Below, piece by piece: positions 3,534 through 10,184 of a DNA stretch of 40,500 nucleotides (position 1 is the first letter of the stretch; each line of letters starts with the position of its first letter). The translations under genes were made by a program, and so were the position numbers. This DNA comes from Spirochaetales bacterium (GTDB taxonomy: Bacteria; Spirochaetota; Spirochaetia; DSM-2461). The notes beneath the pieces are model-generated. The model saw nothing but the letters and a program-made list of their open reading frames with translations, did not search any database and was not told where the DNA came from. Location: NCBI GenBank assembly GCA_028532905.1, contig JAQQAM010000266.1, positions 1 through 40,500 on the forward strand, read 5' to 3'.

Positions 3534-4580
3534 TTACCGGGCAGACTTGATCTCATCCCAGATGCGGCTATACAGCTCATTATCATCTCCCAGATCAAGA
3601 AGAATCTCGGAATTCTCCAGAACCTCATCGGTAATGAAAACCGCTGGATCATTCAGAATATCTTCACTCAGGAGTTTGTAGGCCTCTGTATTGGGAGCCA
3701 GATAGTAAACATACTCGATGTTGGCAGCGGCGACTTCCGCCTGGAGCATATAATCTATAAACGCATAGGCCTCGTCTGTATTTTTCGCCCCTTTGAGAAT
3801 GACCATGTTATCGATGGAGATGGCTGTGCCTTCCTCAGGGACGATAAACTGAAGATCCTCTCTCTCCTCCTGAACCTGCAGGATATCGCCGGAGTATCCC
3901 TGGCTGATCACAAACTCACTGCTCACCAGTCCGTTCTTGTACTGATCGTTCTCAAACTTAGCCAGGTTCTTTTTCCAGGCGATGAGAAGGTCTCTGGCTT
4001 CCGCCAGTTCGGCTTCCGACCGGGAATTGTAGGAATAGCCCAGGTACTTCAAAGCCGCTCCGATGGTTTCCCTCACATCGTTGAGCATAGTCATCTTAAG
4101 GGCATAATCGGAGGTTCCGAAAATATCCCAGGAAAGGCTGTCCAGTTCTCCCAGCTCGGAGGCCAGATAGCCGATACCGGTTGTGCTCACCATATAGGGA
4201 ACCGAATATTCCATATCATTGTCCACAGAGAGGGCTGTGAATTTCCGGTCAATATTGTTCAGATTGGACAGTCTGGAATGGTCTATCTGCTGCAGCATGC
4301 CGCTCTGGTTCATGATTTCCACCATATAACTTGTGGGGAAGACAATATCATACCCGTCACCACCGGAGCGGAGTTTGGCATACATGGATTCGTTTGAGTC
4401 AAAATAATCTGTAATAACCTGGATACCTGTTTCTTCAGTAAAAGTCTTTACCAGTTCTTCATCGATATAATCGGACCAGTTATACAGATAGAGTTTCCGG
4501 CTCTCCTCTTTGGAGCAGCCTCCCAGAAGGAATACAGAGAGAATAAGGGCGGCCATAAAGCTGCAGGTTCTAATTTTCAT
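3534..4580 (-). CDS. potD: Spermidine/putrescine ABC transporter substrate-binding lipoprotein PotD
   Basis: 348 aa, the same length as typical PotD. A lipoprotein signal ends LLGGC at Cys22, so the mature protein should be anchored in the periplasm. KLYLYNWSDYIDEELVKTF is the signature N-terminal strand of PotD/PotF, followed by FEEETGI-like TEETGIQVITDYFDSNESMYAKL and GYDIVFPTSYMVEIM. AISIDNMVILKGAKNTDEAYAFIDYML near 250-280 is also characteristic. It binds polyamine and delivers it to PotBC. It is the last gene of the minus-strand operon, and its start overlaps the end of potC by 11 bases. Whether it prefers spermidine or putrescine is not determinable by eye. Confidence 0.93.
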   Translation of the reverse strand: MKIRTCSFMAALILSVFLLGGCSKEESRKLYLYNWSDYIDEELVKTFTEETGIQVITDYFDSNESMYAKLRSGGDGYDIVFPTSYMVEIMNQSGMLQQIDHSRLSNLNNIDRKFTALSVDNDMEYSVPYMVSTTGIGYLASELGELDSLSWDIFGTSDYALKMTMLNDVRETIGAALKYLGYSYNSRSEAELAEARDLLIAWKKNLAKFENDQYKNGLVSSEFVISQGYSGDILQVQEEREDLQFIVPEEGTAISIDNMVILKGAKNTDEAYAFIDYMLQAEVAAANIEYVYYLAPNTEAYKLLSEDILNDPAVFITDEVLENSEILLDLGDDNELYSRIWDEIKSAR

Positions 4581-5352
4581 TGTTTAATCTCCTTGAGATC
4601 CGCTGATAAAACAGCAGGACTATAAAAGTAAATGCGATAAAAAGGGTCGATAGAGCATTGATCACCGGGGGTGAACCGTGACGGATCATGCTGTATATCT
4701 GAATGGGCAGGGTCGAGGCTCCCGGCCCCGCCGTGAAAAAGCTGATAATAAAGTCATCCAGCGACAGAGTCATGGCCAGCATGGCTCCCGACAGGATTCC
4801 CGGCGCCAGCAGGGGCAGGTATATTTTCCACAGGATCTGCCCTTTACCGGCTCCCAGATCCTGTGCCGCTTCAATCAGAGAAAAGTCGAAATTCTGAAAC
4901 CGGGCCTGCACTGTGGAGGCCACATAACTGACACAGAAAGTGATATGCCCGATAATGATTGTCAGAAGAGACAGCCTGATTCTAAATGAGATAAAAAAGA
5001 GCAGCAGGCTTATGCCGATCAGAATATCCGGCATGATCAGAGGCAGGGCGATAAATACGGAATGAACCTTCTGCAGCCGGCTTTTAAACCGGGCAATGCT
5101 GATTCCGGCCAGGCTCCCCAGAACCGTGGAACACAGAACTGATATGCCTGTGACTAAAACAGTATTTTTCACCGAGCGAAGGAGGTTCTGATCGCTGAAT
5201 AGCCTCTCATACCACTTAAGGGAAAACCCTCCCCACACCGAGGAGACCCGGGAGGCGTTAAAGGAGTTGACCACCAGTACAACCAGGGGAAGATAGAAGA
5301 AAATCACAATTCCGGCCAGTATGAGTACAGGAAGAACAGATTTCTTTTTCAT
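4570..5352 (-). CDS. potC: Spermidine/putrescine ABC transporter permease PotC
   Basis: A 260-aa inner-membrane permease with about six hydrophobic segments, the first at 8-28 (VLPVLILAGIVIFFYLPLVV). The EAA loop that contacts the ATPase reads EAAQDLGAGKGQILWKIYLP around 160-180. VWGGFSLKWYERLF early in the protein and SLDDFIISFFTAGPG late are typical of PotC/PotI. It pairs with PotB to form the channel. It overlaps potB by 4 bases upstream and potD by 11 bases downstream, consistent with tight translational coupling. Confidence 0.93.
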   Translation of the reverse strand: MKKKSVLPVLILAGIVIFFYLPLVVLVVNSFNASRVSSVWGGFSLKWYERLFSDQNLLRSVKNTVLVTGISVLCSTVLGSLAGISIARFKSRLQKVHSVFIALPLIMPDILIGISLLLFFISFRIRLSLLTIIIGHITFCVSYVASTVQARFQNFDFSLIEAAQDLGAGKGQILWKIYLPLLAPGILSGAMLAMTLSLDDFIISFFTAGPGASTLPIQIYSMIRHGSPPVINALSTLFIAFTFIVLLFYQRISRRLNNEN

Positions 5353-6206
5353 GTCTGCACCAGCTCCTTCCGGCCTTTGGCAAGGCTGTCCCTGTTAACC
5401 AGAGACACCAGGGAGGGGAGGAGGATCATCAGAATCAGAAAGCCCGAAAGAGCCCCGGCTCTGGGAATATTTCTGTCGACAAACACATACCGGGCAATCT
5501 TGTTTCCCAGCATTTCCGAACTTGGCCCCCCCACAATTTCCGGTATGATATAACTGCCCATGGCGGGGATAAAAACAACCAGGACAGCATTGATGATGCC
5601 CTGTCTGATTCCGGGAAGATAGACCCTTGTCACAAGCTGCAGAGTGCTGCTGCCCAGATCCCGCCCCGCATCCAGAAGGGTGAAGTCGAAATTCCCTGCG
5701 GCACTGTACAGGGGCAGAAGAGCAAAGGGCAGATAGGTATAGACCAGAACAAGAAGAACCGCCCCTTCCGTATAAAGGAGTGTGGCACCCTGGTCGAGAA
5801 ATCCTGCCCAGACAAGACAGTGCTTGATAAACCCGTCCGGATGGAGCAGCACTTTCCAGGCATAGATCCGAATCAGGAAATTCGTCCAGAAGGGAACAAC
5901 CAGAATGAGAAGCAGGATATTCTGCATTCTGCGGCTCATCCTGGACATGCCATAAGCTGCCGGCACGGCCAGCAGCAGACAGATGACTGTTGTGTACAAA
6001 CTGAGTCTGACTGTCCTGAGAATAACAGGCATCAGATGCATTCCCGCAAGGGACTGATAGGCTTTTACAGTCCAGACCGGCAGCAGGACACCATAGGAGT
6101 CACTGCCCCTGAAGCTGATCAGAATAATGAGAGCTGAAGGTATGATAAAAAAAACAGCAAGCCACAGAAACGAGGGCATTGTAAGGGCGAACTCGTTTCG
6201 TCTCAT
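5349..6206 (-). CDS. potB: Spermidine/putrescine ABC transporter permease PotB
   Basis: A 285-aa inner-membrane permease with about six hydrophobic segments. FLWLAVFFIIPSALIILISF near the N-terminus is the first. The EAA loop reads LLDAGRDLGSSTLQLVTRVY, followed by LPGIRQGI. MGSYIIPEIVGGPSSEMLGN in the C-terminal third is a PotB/PotH hallmark. It forms the heterodimeric channel with PotC. It overlaps potA by 4 bases and potC by 4 bases, in the standard potABCD order. Confidence 0.93.
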   Translation of the reverse strand: MRRNEFALTMPSFLWLAVFFIIPSALIILISFRGSDSYGVLLPVWTVKAYQSLAGMHLMPVILRTVRLSLYTTVICLLLAVPAAYGMSRMSRRMQNILLLILVVPFWTNFLIRIYAWKVLLHPDGFIKHCLVWAGFLDQGATLLYTEGAVLLVLVYTYLPFALLPLYSAAGNFDFTLLDAGRDLGSSTLQLVTRVYLPGIRQGIINAVLVVFIPAMGSYIIPEIVGGPSSEMLGNKIARYVFVDRNIPRAGALSGFLILMILLPSLVSLVNRDSLAKGRKELVQT

Positions 6207-7414
6207 GCCTCATCTCCGTCTTGATCCACAAGCATACCGGGCTGGGTATCCTGCTCCATCCGGGCAAATTTATCATCCGGATTTGTCAGCAGGGCTTCAT
6301 CCTGTTCCCTGTATTTCAACAGCATGAATCCGTCATCCTGATGCCAGCTGAGCCAGACTTCATCTTCCCACTCCGGGGGATTCCGGTCCAGAAGGAAATG
6401 CCTGTGGGCATCCAGAACCACAATAAGCCATTCGCCGCAGCGGACCCAGTACTTGGAAAAAGCTCCCAGATAGGACTTTTCTTCCACAACCCCTCTAAAA
6501 ACATTCAGACCCTCATTTTCAGAAGGCCGTGTCCTGGAGATTCTTATTTTCTCCGGTCTCAGGGAGAGATTGATGTGTTCCCCTGCCTGATGTTTCTGAT
6601 CGTTGTAGCAGCGTGCGGGGGGTAGTCCGTCAATATCCAGAAGAGAGTACTGCCCGTCTTCGCTGAGGGAGTGAACTCTGCAGTCGAAAAAATTCGTATC
6701 CCCGATAAAGGCTGCAGAAAAACTGCTTTTCGGGCTTTCATACACCTGGGAAGGAGTTCCCACCTGCTCAATCCGGCCCATGTTCATTACAGCGATTCTG
6801 TCGGAAAGACTCATGGCCTCTCCCTGATCATGGGTCACAAAGAGAAAGGTGATCCCCACTTCATCGTGTATCTGATCCAGTTCCAGAAGCATCTTCTGAC
6901 GGAGCTTGAGGTCCAGAGCCGCCAGGGGTTCATCCAGCAGCAGAAGCTGGGGCTTGTTGATGACAGCCCGTGCGATGGCGACCCGCTGCTTCTGCCCGCC
7001 GGAAAGTTCGGCAGGCCTGCTCCCGGCATAGTCTTTCATCTGAATCAGATCCAGAGCCCGGTCCAGCTCTTTCCGGATCTCCCCGGCAGACATTCCCCTG
7101 CGGGACACTTTGAGTCCGAAGGTGATATTCTCACTCACTGTCATATGGGGAAAGAGGGCATAATTCTGAAAAACCGTGTTGACCGGCCTCTTATGGCTGG
7201 GAAGGGACAGAATATCCCGGCCGTTCAGCAGAACACGTCCGGCATCGGGTTCTTCAAAACCGCCGCAGATTCTAAGGAGAGTCGTTTTGCCGCAGCCCGA
7301 TGGTCCCAGGAGGCTGAAAACCTCACCCTGCTCAATGCTGAGATTCAGATCTTTTATAACTTCAACATCACCAAAGGATTTGCTTATCCCTTCAAAAACA
7401 AGAAAATCCTTCAA
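6203..7414 (-). CDS. potA: Spermidine/putrescine ABC transporter ATPase PotA
   Basis: 404 aa from the proposed start. It has Walker A GPSGCGKTT (about 37-45), Q-loop FQNYALFPHMTV, signature LSGGQKQ (about 137), Walker B LLLLDEP (about 157-163) and H-loop FVTHDQ. A C-terminal TOBE-type regulatory domain follows (INLSLRPEKIRIS, then FRGVVEEKSYLG). It is about 25 residues longer than typical PotA, with an acidic tail after LLKYREQDEALL. I prefer the TTG at 7414, giving MKDFLVFEG, 16 bases after the upstream stop. A TTG at 7465 is also in frame, but GAGGAG lies only one base before it. No ATG is available, so the start is uncertain. Confidence 0.9.
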   Translation of the reverse strand: MKDFLVFEGISKSFGDVEVIKDLNLSIEQGEVFSLLGPSGCGKTTLLRICGGFEEPDAGRVLLNGRDILSLPSHKRPVNTVFQNYALFPHMTVSENITFGLKVSRRGMSAGEIRKELDRALDLIQMKDYAGSRPAELSGGQKQRVAIARAVINKPQLLLLDEPLAALDLKLRQKMLLELDQIHDEVGITFLFVTHDQGEAMSLSDRIAVMNMGRIEQVGTPSQVYESPKSSFSAAFIGDTNFFDCRVHSLSEDGQYSLLDIDGLPPARCYNDQKHQAGEHINLSLRPEKIRISRTRPSENEGLNVFRGVVEEKSYLGAFSKYWVRCGEWLIVVLDAHRHFLLDRNPPEWEDEVWLSWHQDDGFMLLKYREQDEALLTNPDDKFARMEQDTQPGMLVDQDGDEA

Positions 7415-7430
7415 CCCAGAGCCCCCGGCA

Positions 7431-7634
7431 TCAGCGGATGAATCCTTGATCCTGGGCGATATCAAACTCCTCAGGATAATCTTCCAGTTCAGAAATATTT
7501 AAATCGTAAAATTCATAGTAGCCGTAATCAGGATCGTCCTCATATTTTCTCATTTCCTGTTCAGCACTGTCTTTGCTGTCAAAAACAGCAATCAGTTGTG
7601 CTCCGTTGGTCACAAACCATAATTTTGAACTCAT
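7431..7634 (-). CDS. Small acidic, tyrosine-rich protein of unknown function heading the pot operon
   Basis: 67 aa. I do not recognise the family. The layout looks like a compact beta-alpha-beta fold: KLWFVTNGAQLIAVFDSKDS, then AEQEMRKYEDD, then PDYGYYEFYDLNISELED. There are no cysteines, signal peptide or membrane segment. The chain is rich in Asp, Glu and Tyr, so a cationic ligand or partner is conceivable, but that is speculation. It is believable as a gene because AAGGAG sits 6 bases before the ATG, it lies 16 bases before the proposed potA start, and it is the first cistron after a structured leader whose last helix masks this very Shine-Dalgarno. Confidence 0.7.
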   Translation of the reverse strand: MSSKLWFVTNGAQLIAVFDSKDSAEQEMRKYEDDPDYGYYEFYDLNISELEDYPEEFDIAQDQGFIR

Positions 7635-7829
7635 AAAAAACTCCTTATCGAAGGAGAAGAGAGAAGTTGCGCTGTCAGGGAAGGTCGAGACCGGTCCCCC
7701 GTTATACCAAACACGTAACTACTTATACCTTCAAACCAGTCTCCCTGATGGGGAGAATTCCTTCGAATAAAAAAGATATAAGCAGACATTGTTAGCATTA
7801 AGGGTCCTTTGTCTGCTATGAAATTGTTA
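7635..7829 (-). promoter_or_regulatory. Structured 5' leader with a Shine-Dalgarno-masking helix (candidate riboswitch or cis-regulatory RNA)
   Basis: In transcript order: a hairpin (7817-7781); a long-range helix of TCGAAGGA (7766-7759) with TCCTTCGA (7655-7648), 8 perfect pairs; an inner helix TCAGGGA (7748-7742) with TCCCTGA (7681-7675); and GAGACTGGT (7743-7735) with ACCGGTCTC (7695-7687), 9 pairs including one G-U, sharing two bases with the previous helix. About 40 unpaired bases (7734-7696) lie in the core. The 3' arm of the long-range helix is also the 5' arm of a hairpin CTCCTT-CGAT-AAGGAG (7656-7641) that buries the Shine-Dalgarno and is followed by TTTTTT. The two structures exclude each other. 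I do not recognise a known riboswitch consensus. Confidence 0.6.
7781..7817 (-). terminator. Terminator-like hairpin inside the pot leader
   Basis: AGCAGACA (7817-7810) pairs perfectly with TGTCTGCT (7788-7781) across a 21-base loop. The transcript continues TATATCTTTTTTATT. This has the shape of an early intrinsic terminator or attenuator, although the stem is only 8 pairs and the T-run starts 6 bases after it. Confidence 0.4.
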
Positions 7830-7835
7830 TGTCCC

Positions 7836-7863
7836 AATATAACTGATTTTTCATTCTTGTCAA
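7836..7863 (-). promoter_or_regulatory. Sigma70 promoter of the pot operon
   Basis: On the minus strand TTGACA (7863-7858), a 16-base spacer and TATATT (7841-7836) form a near-consensus promoter. The start would be about 7829, giving a leader of about 190 bases before the small acidic gene. Confidence 0.7.
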
Positions 7864-7911
7864 TGTCAGGAGATCAAAAAAACTACACAAACATTTCATA
7901 TCACATTGACA
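7858..7911. repeat. Inverted repeat TGTCAATG...CATTGACA
   Basis: Perfect 8-base arms at 7858-7865 and 7904-7911, 38 bases apart. The left arm contains the -35 box of the pot promoter. The right arm presents the same CATTGACA facing the other way, toward the small gene at 7981, but no -10 box follows it at normal spacing. It could be a two-site operator or a degenerate divergent promoter. Confidence 0.35.
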
Positions 7912-7980
7912 GGAGGTAGAAAAACCGGGGTCAGAATACTGTTGTTTAATTTATTATGAATACAGGAAATAGAAGATACT

Positions 7981-8205
7981 ATGAATAAATGCCCTTTTTA
8001 CAAAGAAGAACATCCCTATTTCAGCATAATCGGAGAAGACGGTATTGAAAACAAGATGATCCCTGTGTGCAGCCGGCCGGGAATTGAACTGCTGGGACTG
8101 GGCAGTGATATTGTTTTCTGTGAGGGGAAGGATGATCTGTGTCCCTTTCACAACAGCAAAAACTATTCAGACCATATCAAACCGGCGGTGACCGCAATAG
8201 CCTGA
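7981..8205 (+). CDS. Small four-cysteine protein of unknown function
   Basis: 74 aa, not recognised. It begins MNKCPFYKEEHPYF and has cysteines at 4, 30, 47 and 54 (KCPFY, PVCSRPG, VFCEG, DLCPFH). The repeated CPF near both ends suggests a small metal-binding or Fe-S-binding fold. There is no signal peptide or membrane span. The ribosome site is weak (GGAAATAGAAGATACT). It stands alone between the pot leader and the convergent histidine kinase. The regular spacing of the cysteines argues for a real gene, but the evidence is modest. Confidence 0.5.
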   Translation: MNKCPFYKEEHPYFSIIGEDGIENKMIPVCSRPGIELLGLGSDIVFCEGKDDLCPFHNSKNYSDHIKPAVTAIA

Positions 8206-8240
8206 ATGAGGCAGCCCTGCTTGAGGACGCTGTGCCGGTT

Positions 8241-10184
8241 TTACTCCTCAGCCAGCTGAGGGGCATTGGCCGGGAGGCGCAGAGTAAAGAGTGTCCCCCC
8301 GCCCGGCTCTGATTCAACTTCCAGATTTCCCCCCAGAACCTGTCTGGCACCGTTAAAGGCTATGCTGAGACCCAATCCTGTCCCCCCCTGCCCCTGCCTG
8401 GTGGTAAAGAAGGGTTCAAAGATCTTTTTGCTGACAGTTTTACTCATACCCTTGCCGAAATCCTGAATCGTAATAACCACTTCATCCTCTTCCAGCTGCT
8501 GAGAACTCAGAATGATCAGGCCCTCCTCGCCGGAGCCGTACCCGTGCTGTACGGCGTTGGTAATCAGATTGGTAATAATCTGTCCCAGAATACCGGGGTA
8601 GCTGTTCATGGAAATGCCCGGCTGCAGCTTCCTGATTATGGAGACAGGCGTTCTTTTGGTCAGGGGCTGCAGGGTCAGCAGGAGTTCAGAGAGCATATCC
8701 TCCAGTGAAAAACTGCGCCGCTTTGAGCTTGTCTGGTCTGCAGCAACCTGTTTAAAACTCCGTACCAGTTCGGCTGCCTTTTCAAGGTTTCTCTGGGATA
8801 TCTCAATACCCGTTCCCACATGCTCTTTATACGACTCCAGATCCTGGACTGTGAGATCCTCCCCGCTTATTCCCGTAAAGGCGAGATGGTGTTCATAAAC
8901 AGTGGATACGGCCATCAGAGCATTTCCAAGAGGGGTATTCAGTTCATGGGATACCCCGGCCACCAGCGCGCCGAGGGCCGACAGTTTTTCGGCTTCCACC
9001 AGTTCATCCCGCATCATATTCAGGTCCTGTACGCTTTTTTCCAGCTCCCTGTTGGCGGAACGCAGCTCTCTGGTACGTTGTACGACCCTGTCTTCCAGCT
9101 CTGAGTTCAGTTCTTTCAGTGAGTTCTCCCGCTGCCGGATCTCATCGGCCAGAAACTTAAGATTATCTGCCAGAACATTGATCTCCCGGACAGACTGGGA
9201 CACCCAGGGGGGCTGTACTTTAGAACCGGAAAGCTCAGAGGCATAAACCGCAAGATCCCTCATGCTCCGGGACACCGGACTGGAGGCCAGGGGGGTGATC
9301 ATGACAATCAGCAGTCCCTGGAAGATGACCAGAATAAACATATCAACAATGCGGGAGTAAATATCCGGGTGAGCCAGTCCTGCCGGCATTCTGGTCAGAA
9401 ATATCCAGCCCAGAAAATCGGAATGGGATGAGGCGACATTGTATCGGACTCCATTATAGTCTACATCCAGTAAAGTAATATTTTCTCTGGCAGCCTGTTG
9501 AACGAAGTCCAGCCCCATAAGATTGTCAACGCCGGGGGTAAAAACCCTTTCGGTATCAATCACAACCTCCCCCAGCCTGTCTATAACCCAGACATCAAGA
9601 TACTCGCTCCCCACAGCCAGCCTTATGGCGGATAAAAGGTAATCAATTGACACTTCGGCAATGGCGACATACTGCCCCCCGGGAACAGCGACACCAATGG
9701 TGGTGTCTCCGGCGAGGAGAGACAGATACTTGTCACTCCACACCGGCTTTCTGTACTCAATGGCATCCAGATAAAGGGGATTGTATGACAGATCATTACC
9801 GATCATGGTCTGGCCGCTCTGGTAGGATGGTCCCTTTATATCGGCTGCAACGGTAATACCCTTTTCATCCAGCAGCAGAAGAGCCTGAATGTCCTCATTA
9901 TCTTCCAGAAAATCATGGATCACCTCGTTCACCTGACCGGAAGACAGGAAATTACTGCTGGCGGCAAAAAGCCTCAGTTTTTCCAGTACCGAAGCCAGCA
10001 TAAGCTCGGACCGGGCAGCCATAACTTCTGATGCAACCGATACGGACCGTTCATTCTGCTTTTCCAGCTGGGGAAGCCTGTACAGCATTATATAGGAGGA
10101 AACCAGAACGAGTGAGACTGACCCTACAGAGATAAAAAGAATAATGAGATACAGTCTGAATGAAATGCTTCCGAACCTGGTCAC
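8241..10184 (-). CDS. Membrane sensor histidine kinase with an extracytoplasmic sensor domain
   Basis: 647 aa. A transmembrane segment lies at about 10-36. A periplasmic region of Cache-like style spans about 37-275 (ALLLLDEKGITVAADI, then YLDVWVIDRLGEVVIDT). A second membrane segment is at about 280-300, and a coiled linker runs from about 345 to 400. The kinase core has H-box SALGALVAGVSHELNTPLG with His413, N-box NLITNAVQHG (539-548), DFGKGM (575-580), FEPFFTT (589-595) and GTGLGLSIA (601-609). No receiver domain is attached. The start is GTG, overlapping the stop of the lipoprotein gene as GTGA. It is the last gene of a three-gene operon, and the operon's REC protein is the obvious phosphotransfer partner. 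Confidence 0.9.
   Translation of the reverse strand: MTRFGSISFRLYLIILFISVGSVSLVLVSSYIMLYRLPQLEKQNERSVSVASEVMAARSELMLASVLEKLRLFAASSNFLSSGQVNEVIHDFLEDNEDIQALLLLDEKGITVAADIKGPSYQSGQTMIGNDLSYNPLYLDAIEYRKPVWSDKYLSLLAGDTTIGVAVPGGQYVAIAEVSIDYLLSAIRLAVGSEYLDVWVIDRLGEVVIDTERVFTPGVDNLMGLDFVQQAARENITLLDVDYNGVRYNVASSHSDFLGWIFLTRMPAGLAHPDIYSRIVDMFILVIFQGLLIVMITPLASSPVSRSMRDLAVYASELSGSKVQPPWVSQSVREINVLADNLKFLADEIRQRENSLKELNSELEDRVVQRTRELRSANRELEKSVQDLNMMRDELVEAEKLSALGALVAGVSHELNTPLGNALMAVSTVYEHHLAFTGISGEDLTVQDLESYKEHVGTGIEISQRNLEKAAELVRSFKQVAADQTSSKRRSFSLEDMLSELLLTLQPLTKRTPVSIIRKLQPGISMNSYPGILGQIITNLITNAVQHGYGSGEEGLIILSSQQLEEDEVVITIQDFGKGMSKTVSKKIFEPFFTTRQGQGGTGLGLSIAFNGARQVLGGNLEVESEPGGGTLFTLRLPANAPQLAEE

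Follow-up and report, generated by a model that had tools for sequence, protein, structure and literature searches.

The window (the whole stretch of 40,500 nucleotides of spirochaete DNA analysed here) encodes on its minus strand a small acidic protein of the DUF7336 family, followed by the genes of a polyamine ABC importer, potABCD, of which potA scores above the cut-off of the NCBIfam model TIGR01187, while the best matches of the other genes are PotB, PotC, and PotD. The operon is preceded by a leader (Table 1) in which the first-pass annotation had described a promoter, three helix pairs and a hairpin masking the Shine-Dalgarno sequence, and inspection of the minus strand located every one of these elements, and the leader itself, as proposed. 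Besides the outer helix (P4 in Table 1), these are the nested helices UCAGGGA (7748-7742)/UCCCUGA (7681-7675) and GAGACUGGU (7743-7735)/ACCGGUCUC (7695-7687), and the alternative hairpin CUCCUU (7656-7651)/AAGGAG (7646-7641), with the start codon at 7634. The stretches UCCCC (7754-7750) and GGGGA (7699-7695), for which a pseudoknot had been suggested, are likewise present, at slightly different positions, but no consistent counterpart was recognized by eye in relatives. The predicted folding energy of the leader is -43.9 kcal/mol (z = -1.6, 10 of 200 shuffles being as stable), and, as this is only mildly better than shuffles, folding of a single sequence cannot decide; the case for an above-chance structure comes from genome comparison, the folding energy alone being unremarkable. 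The minus strand also carries, upstream of the leader, a histidine kinase gene (8241-10184) whose product has a dCache sensor domain.

Table 1. Features of the leader and of the operon that follows it (window coordinates).
Feature	Position	Strand	Remarks and basis
Promoter	7836..7863	-	TTGACA 7863-7858, 16 nt, TATATT 7841-7836; sequence; TTGAC in 32/32 copies
Predicted transcription start	near 7829	-	from promoter
Leader of polyamine-import operon	about 7829 to 7635	-	between predicted start and first gene
P1 hairpin, putative aptamer	7781..7817	-	conserved block, covariance model matches, covariation
P2 5' strand CTGCTTATATCTT	7773..7785	-	overlaps 3' arm of P1; best-duplex test
P2 3' strand AAGGTATAAGTAG	7719..7731	-	best-duplex test; sequence varies by subtype, pairing kept
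P4 5' arm UCGAAGGA	7759..7766	-	outer helix of first-pass annotation; cognate-pairing permutation test
P3 hairpin TCTCCC/GGGAGA	7740..7756	-	within P2 loop; sequence and fold
P4 3' arm UCCUUCGA	7648..7655	-	adjoins Shine-Dalgarno; sequence and permutation test
Shine-Dalgarno AAGGAG	7641..7646	-	sequence
67-aa acidic protein, DUF7336 (PF24024)	7431..7634	-	Pfam E 1.6e-5
potABCD polyamine ABC importer	3534..7465	-	Pfam; NCBIfam; potA start codon uncertain

Distribution and conserved core of the leader RNA

A DNA search of 61 relatives revealed a block (7819-7773) with 87-98% identity in the nine genomes that match best and lower similarity in others; leader conservation, which the proposal of a conserved RNA implies, is indeed found. 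Two covariance models, the first comprising P1 and P2 and the second P1 with its loop, were run on 395 Spirochaetia genomes, and the second returned 32 copies at E<1e-9, the next match appearing only at E>3e-3. A divergent 33rd copy (24.7 bits) was recognized in genome G089, with a promoter immediately before it and a DUF7336 gene immediately after, for a total of 33 copies in 22 Spirochaetia genomes representing five families. A phylum-wide search (393 genomes) produced, outside Spirochaetia, only noise on inspection. Of the 16 contigs matched when 84,980 species were scanned with a pattern, 15 belong to Spirochaetia; the other, a Patescibacteria match (L114), was dismissed as chance, its context being unlike that of the other matches. 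No copy was found in the viral contigs searched. A cmscan of the whole window against Rfam 15 gave no match at the gathering threshold, and the loci of eight relatives gave none up to E=1; GadY and U6atac, which surfaced in the leader at permissive thresholds (up to E=10), were rejected as chance matches. A partial literature search found no paper describing the motif. The leader RNA thus appears to be restricted to one class, Spirochaetia, and is uncatalogued in Rfam, in agreement with the original suggestion of an undescribed conserved cis-regulatory RNA.

Within the leader, conservation is highest in P1, its loop included, and in the P2 strand AAGGTATAAGTAG, neither of which had been singled out before: the helices listed in the first-pass annotation are present, but the conserved, sensor-like part, made up of P1 and its exchange with P2, lies upstream of them. 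In the window, the P1 arms AGCAGACA (7817-7810) and TGTCTGCT (7788-7781) enclose a near-invariant loop, GGACCC...GCTAAC (7809-7789), and the consensus of the stem is (G/A)CAGA(C/U).../(G/A)UCUG(C/U). Its six pairs are intact in all 31 aligned sequences. Four of them never vary; of the other two, the outer one is GC, AU, or GU and the inner one CG or UA, both strands having changed, and the G089 copy, found later, also possesses the UA inner pair. Upstream of P1, the -35 box is found in every copy tested (Table 1), with a best promoter score of 19.8 versus 16.6 in shuffles, and the distance from the -10 box to the start of P1 is 9-20 nt in most copies and 34-42 nt in a second subtype. In members of this subtype (L059, L062, L069, L070, L072), an apparent extra hairpin, for example CCCATTGTTGATGGG, is seen between the -10 box and P1. 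P1 lies near the predicted transcription start and would be the 5'-terminal hairpin of the transcript, with the effector probably bound at its GGACCC...GCTAAC loop.

The 3' arm of P1 has a second potential partner. In the window, this arm and the adjoining strand (CUGCUUAUAUCUU) pair with the downstream AAGGUAUAAGUAG to form P2, and P2 is the best duplex, at the homologous position, in 31 of 32 copies (G068 being the exception), despite strongly divergent sequences of the subtypes, exemplified by G089, in which CUGCUUUUUAACUU pairs with GAAUUAAGAAGCAG. The combined shuffle p-value, 2e-22, is optimistic, the sequences being related. As some bases are common to both helices, full P1 and full P2 are mutually exclusive, and their overlap is, as judged by sequence comparison, a conserved strand-exchange switch. 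Mutually exclusive structures coupling a sensor to expression are a hallmark of riboswitches, and strand sharing between P1 and P2 in 31 of the 32 copies conforms to this design.

Pairing around the Shine-Dalgarno sequence

Within the P2 loop, the position of P3 is occupied in several relatives by a hairpin of other sequence (judged by eye). In the leaders of the pot type, P4 forms between a run of purines in the P2 loop and a run of pyrimidines located shortly 5' of the Shine-Dalgarno sequence, and over 12 leaders cognate arms pair with a mean energy of -14.7 kcal/mol versus -11.9 kcal/mol for non-cognate arms (permutation p=1e-4), examples from relatives being GAAGAGACG/CGUUUCUUC (G048) and GAAGCGGC/GCCGUUUC (G129). 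The pyrimidines of P4 are also able to pair locally with the Shine-Dalgarno sequence, and in several leaders P4 itself extends into it (UUUCUU with AGGAGAA). The platform proposed earlier, in which the outer helix and the masking of the ribosome-binding site exclude each other, is therefore only partly retained: P4 recurs in relatives, but, since it reaches the Shine-Dalgarno sequence in several of them, the two states are not simply exclusive. The P4/Shine-Dalgarno platform appears to be conserved, with a logic more complex than an alternative of outer helix or masking.

The outcome of the competition between P1 and P2 would set the downstream pairing, of both the P4 arms and the Shine-Dalgarno sequence, which would then set translation of the first gene and thereby of the whole operon; on this basis we infer translational control by the leader. 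The coupling of P1/P2 to the Shine-Dalgarno sequence is plausible but not uniform across leaders, and in G010 the Shine-Dalgarno sequence is located within P2. Constrained folds of 13 leaders, with P1 forced or with its 5' arm kept single-stranded, affected exposure of the Shine-Dalgarno sequence inconsistently, and because of this disagreement we claim no ON or OFF direction. Small translational riboswitches combine a short, conserved 5'-terminal hairpin with alternative pairing that involves the Shine-Dalgarno sequence. The spirochaete leader shares both traits, but it matches no such family in Rfam, even at permissive thresholds.

Genes behind the RNA

The most common direct neighbor of the RNA is not a pot gene but the DUF7336 gene, found directly 3' of it in 26 of the 33 copies. 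The AlphaFold model of the protein (pLDDT 87) has no significant match in the PDB (best E 0.19). Polyamine genes follow in seven cases. Four are pot operons: the window, G007, and G012 have DUF7336-potABCD, and G018 has DUF7336-potA up to the end of the contig. The other three are speA/carboxynorspermidine operons: G073 and G089 have DUF7336-speA-carboxynorspermidine synthase, and G010 has speA-carboxynorspermidine synthase-nspC without DUF7336. These operons recur across different families and RNA subtypes. The polyamine connection made in the first-pass annotation is thus stronger than originally proposed, as copies of the RNA lead biosynthesis operons in addition to import operons; the controlled genes named there, for a small acidic protein and potABCD, are confirmed, but many other copies lead non-polyamine genes. 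In the 22 carrier genomes the RNA leads three of eight speA genes and three of 11 potD genes; the remaining five speA genes and the majority of the potD genes are not led by it. As the genomes have tens of thousands of operons and only 33 sites, well under 0.1 such genes would be expected by chance, and the probability of at least six of 19 being led by the RNA is 2e-11 or less, that of at least four being about 4e-7 at the lowest operon count tried; both figures involve estimated operon counts and related genomes. In G073 (L074, about 7430-9860), a carboxynorspermidine decarboxylase gene 3' of speA and the synthase gene looks frameshifted and is followed by an agmatinase-like gene, the names agmatinase and nspC in these fragments resting on reading of the translations. 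In G004 (L059, G004:C14:62587-63778), potD ends just upstream of an RNA copy rather than downstream.

Other genes led by the RNA encode RRM proteins, ribosomal protein S21, a P-loop protein/GNAT pair, DUF1611-like clusters, RimK ligases, and proteins of ion transport and osmotic response (MscS, TrkH/TrkA, CorA). Riboswitches are structured 5' UTR RNAs of metabolically related genes, and the RNA described here is of this kind, though part of its genes are not obviously related; the non-polyamine targets fit cation and osmotic homeostasis, to which polyamines are tied. The P-loop/GNAT module is found behind the RNA in three genomes (L055, L056, L065) and consists of a 341-amino-acid P-loop protein with no good family match and a GNAT acetyltransferase.

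Candidate effectors

The leader has the build of a riboswitch; it is the architecture that suggests this status, and ligand binding is predicted. We favor, with moderate confidence, the view that it represents a new, Spirochaetia-restricted class of cis-regulatory RNA, most likely a riboswitch for a polyamine or for a cation state tied to polyamines. The many non-polyamine targets (RRM, S21, MscS, Trk, CorA, RimK, DUF1611-like) and the speA and potD genes that lack the RNA speak against this view. A small ligand at the invariant P1 loop is the simplest reading, and we infer a polyamine, or a cation state following the polyamine level, as the effector, a polyamine being the leading candidate. 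More tentatively, the RNA may be a polyamine riboswitch class proper, with an aptamer of its own (the GGACCC/GCUAAC hairpin, not SAM-I), whose strand exchange would coordinate import, synthesis, and cation/osmotic genes across a class of spirochaetes.

Riboswitches for polyamines, which are abundant cations that bind RNA, have long been sought. The only polyamine class found in the literature searched is the spermidine riboswitch, a rare SAM-I variant of Gram-positive genera that folds into a four-stem junction and controls polyamine synthesis genes by terminating transcription (Salvail et al., 2023, PMC10853860). Both are leader RNAs before polyamine genes with probable feedback on polyamine metabolism, but the spirochaete RNA relies on a single hairpin with strand exchange, is found only in Spirochaetia, leads pot operons in addition to synthesis genes, and has a platform centered on the Shine-Dalgarno sequence. 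The four-stem junction and conserved core of SAM-I are not seen in it, the core being a single hairpin, and no SAM-family Rfam match was obtained. If the polyamine reading is true, an independent, compact RNA before uptake and biosynthesis operons would present a second, directly testable polyamine system. It would also offer a way into DUF7336, the functionally uncharacterized family of small acidic proteins associated with the RNA, and into the regulation of stress responses in spirochaetes of marine and sediment habitats.

The RNA-less speA and potD genes and the wider gene set lend some weight to sensing of K+, Mg2+, ionic strength, or an osmolyte, with pot and spe genes as part of a cation/osmotic-stress regulon, a reading that we consider unlikely but worth keeping in view. 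It would account for RNA-led operons that contain TrkH, TrkA, MscS, and CorA (G098), MscS (G014, G048, G000b), or RimK ligases, and polyamine and Mg2+ levels are described as co-regulated in Salmonella (PMC9972920). However, speA-carboxynorspermidine and pot operons are repeatedly and specifically targeted, and control of the ion-transport genes by the leader is uncertain, as these are often several genes downstream.

A somewhat less likely alternative is that the leader binds not a small ligand but a protein, which would either repress translation or act as an antitermination factor. Autogenous leaders, such as those of ribosomal proteins, are bound by the product of the gene that follows, and the spirochaete leaders resemble them in being short, conserved 5' UTR hairpins, with an almost invariant loop and stem typical of protein sites too, and in usually preceding one gene family, DUF7336. 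This protein, however, is strongly acidic, and no match to it at E<=1e-5 was obtained in two RNA carriers, G008 (96% complete) and G010 (74% complete), which makes a trans-acting DUF7336 unlikely and speaks against an autoregulatory leader, for which the protein should be present in every carrier genome. No other protein is common to the loci, and a conserved exchange like that between P1 and P2 is seen more typically in switches driven by a ligand. A folding switch that acts without a ligand, be it an RNA thermometer or of the cold-shock type, is improbable. It would be compatible with S21 and RRM genes among the targets and with switching helices around the Shine-Dalgarno sequence, but a thermometer would not need an invariant unpaired loop, and the polyamine operons would be left unexplained. 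Least probable is a DNA element (an operator or a repeat), to which P1 as an inverted repeat near the promoter and the modest folding z-score might point. Against it speak the pairs that compensate in P1, P2, and P4 although the distances between the strands vary, the location of the element downstream of the predicted start, and its orientation with the gene.

Two additional arrangements concern the DUF7336 genes. Some RNA-less paralogues (L155, L156, L157, L158, L161) have a different leader in common, in which a TTGACAA box is followed by a conserved stretch like TATGCTAAATTTAAA. A back-to-back pair of RNA copies that differ in subtype is present at two loci (L060, G009:C248; L061, G018:C399), each copy leading its own divergent DUF7336 gene.
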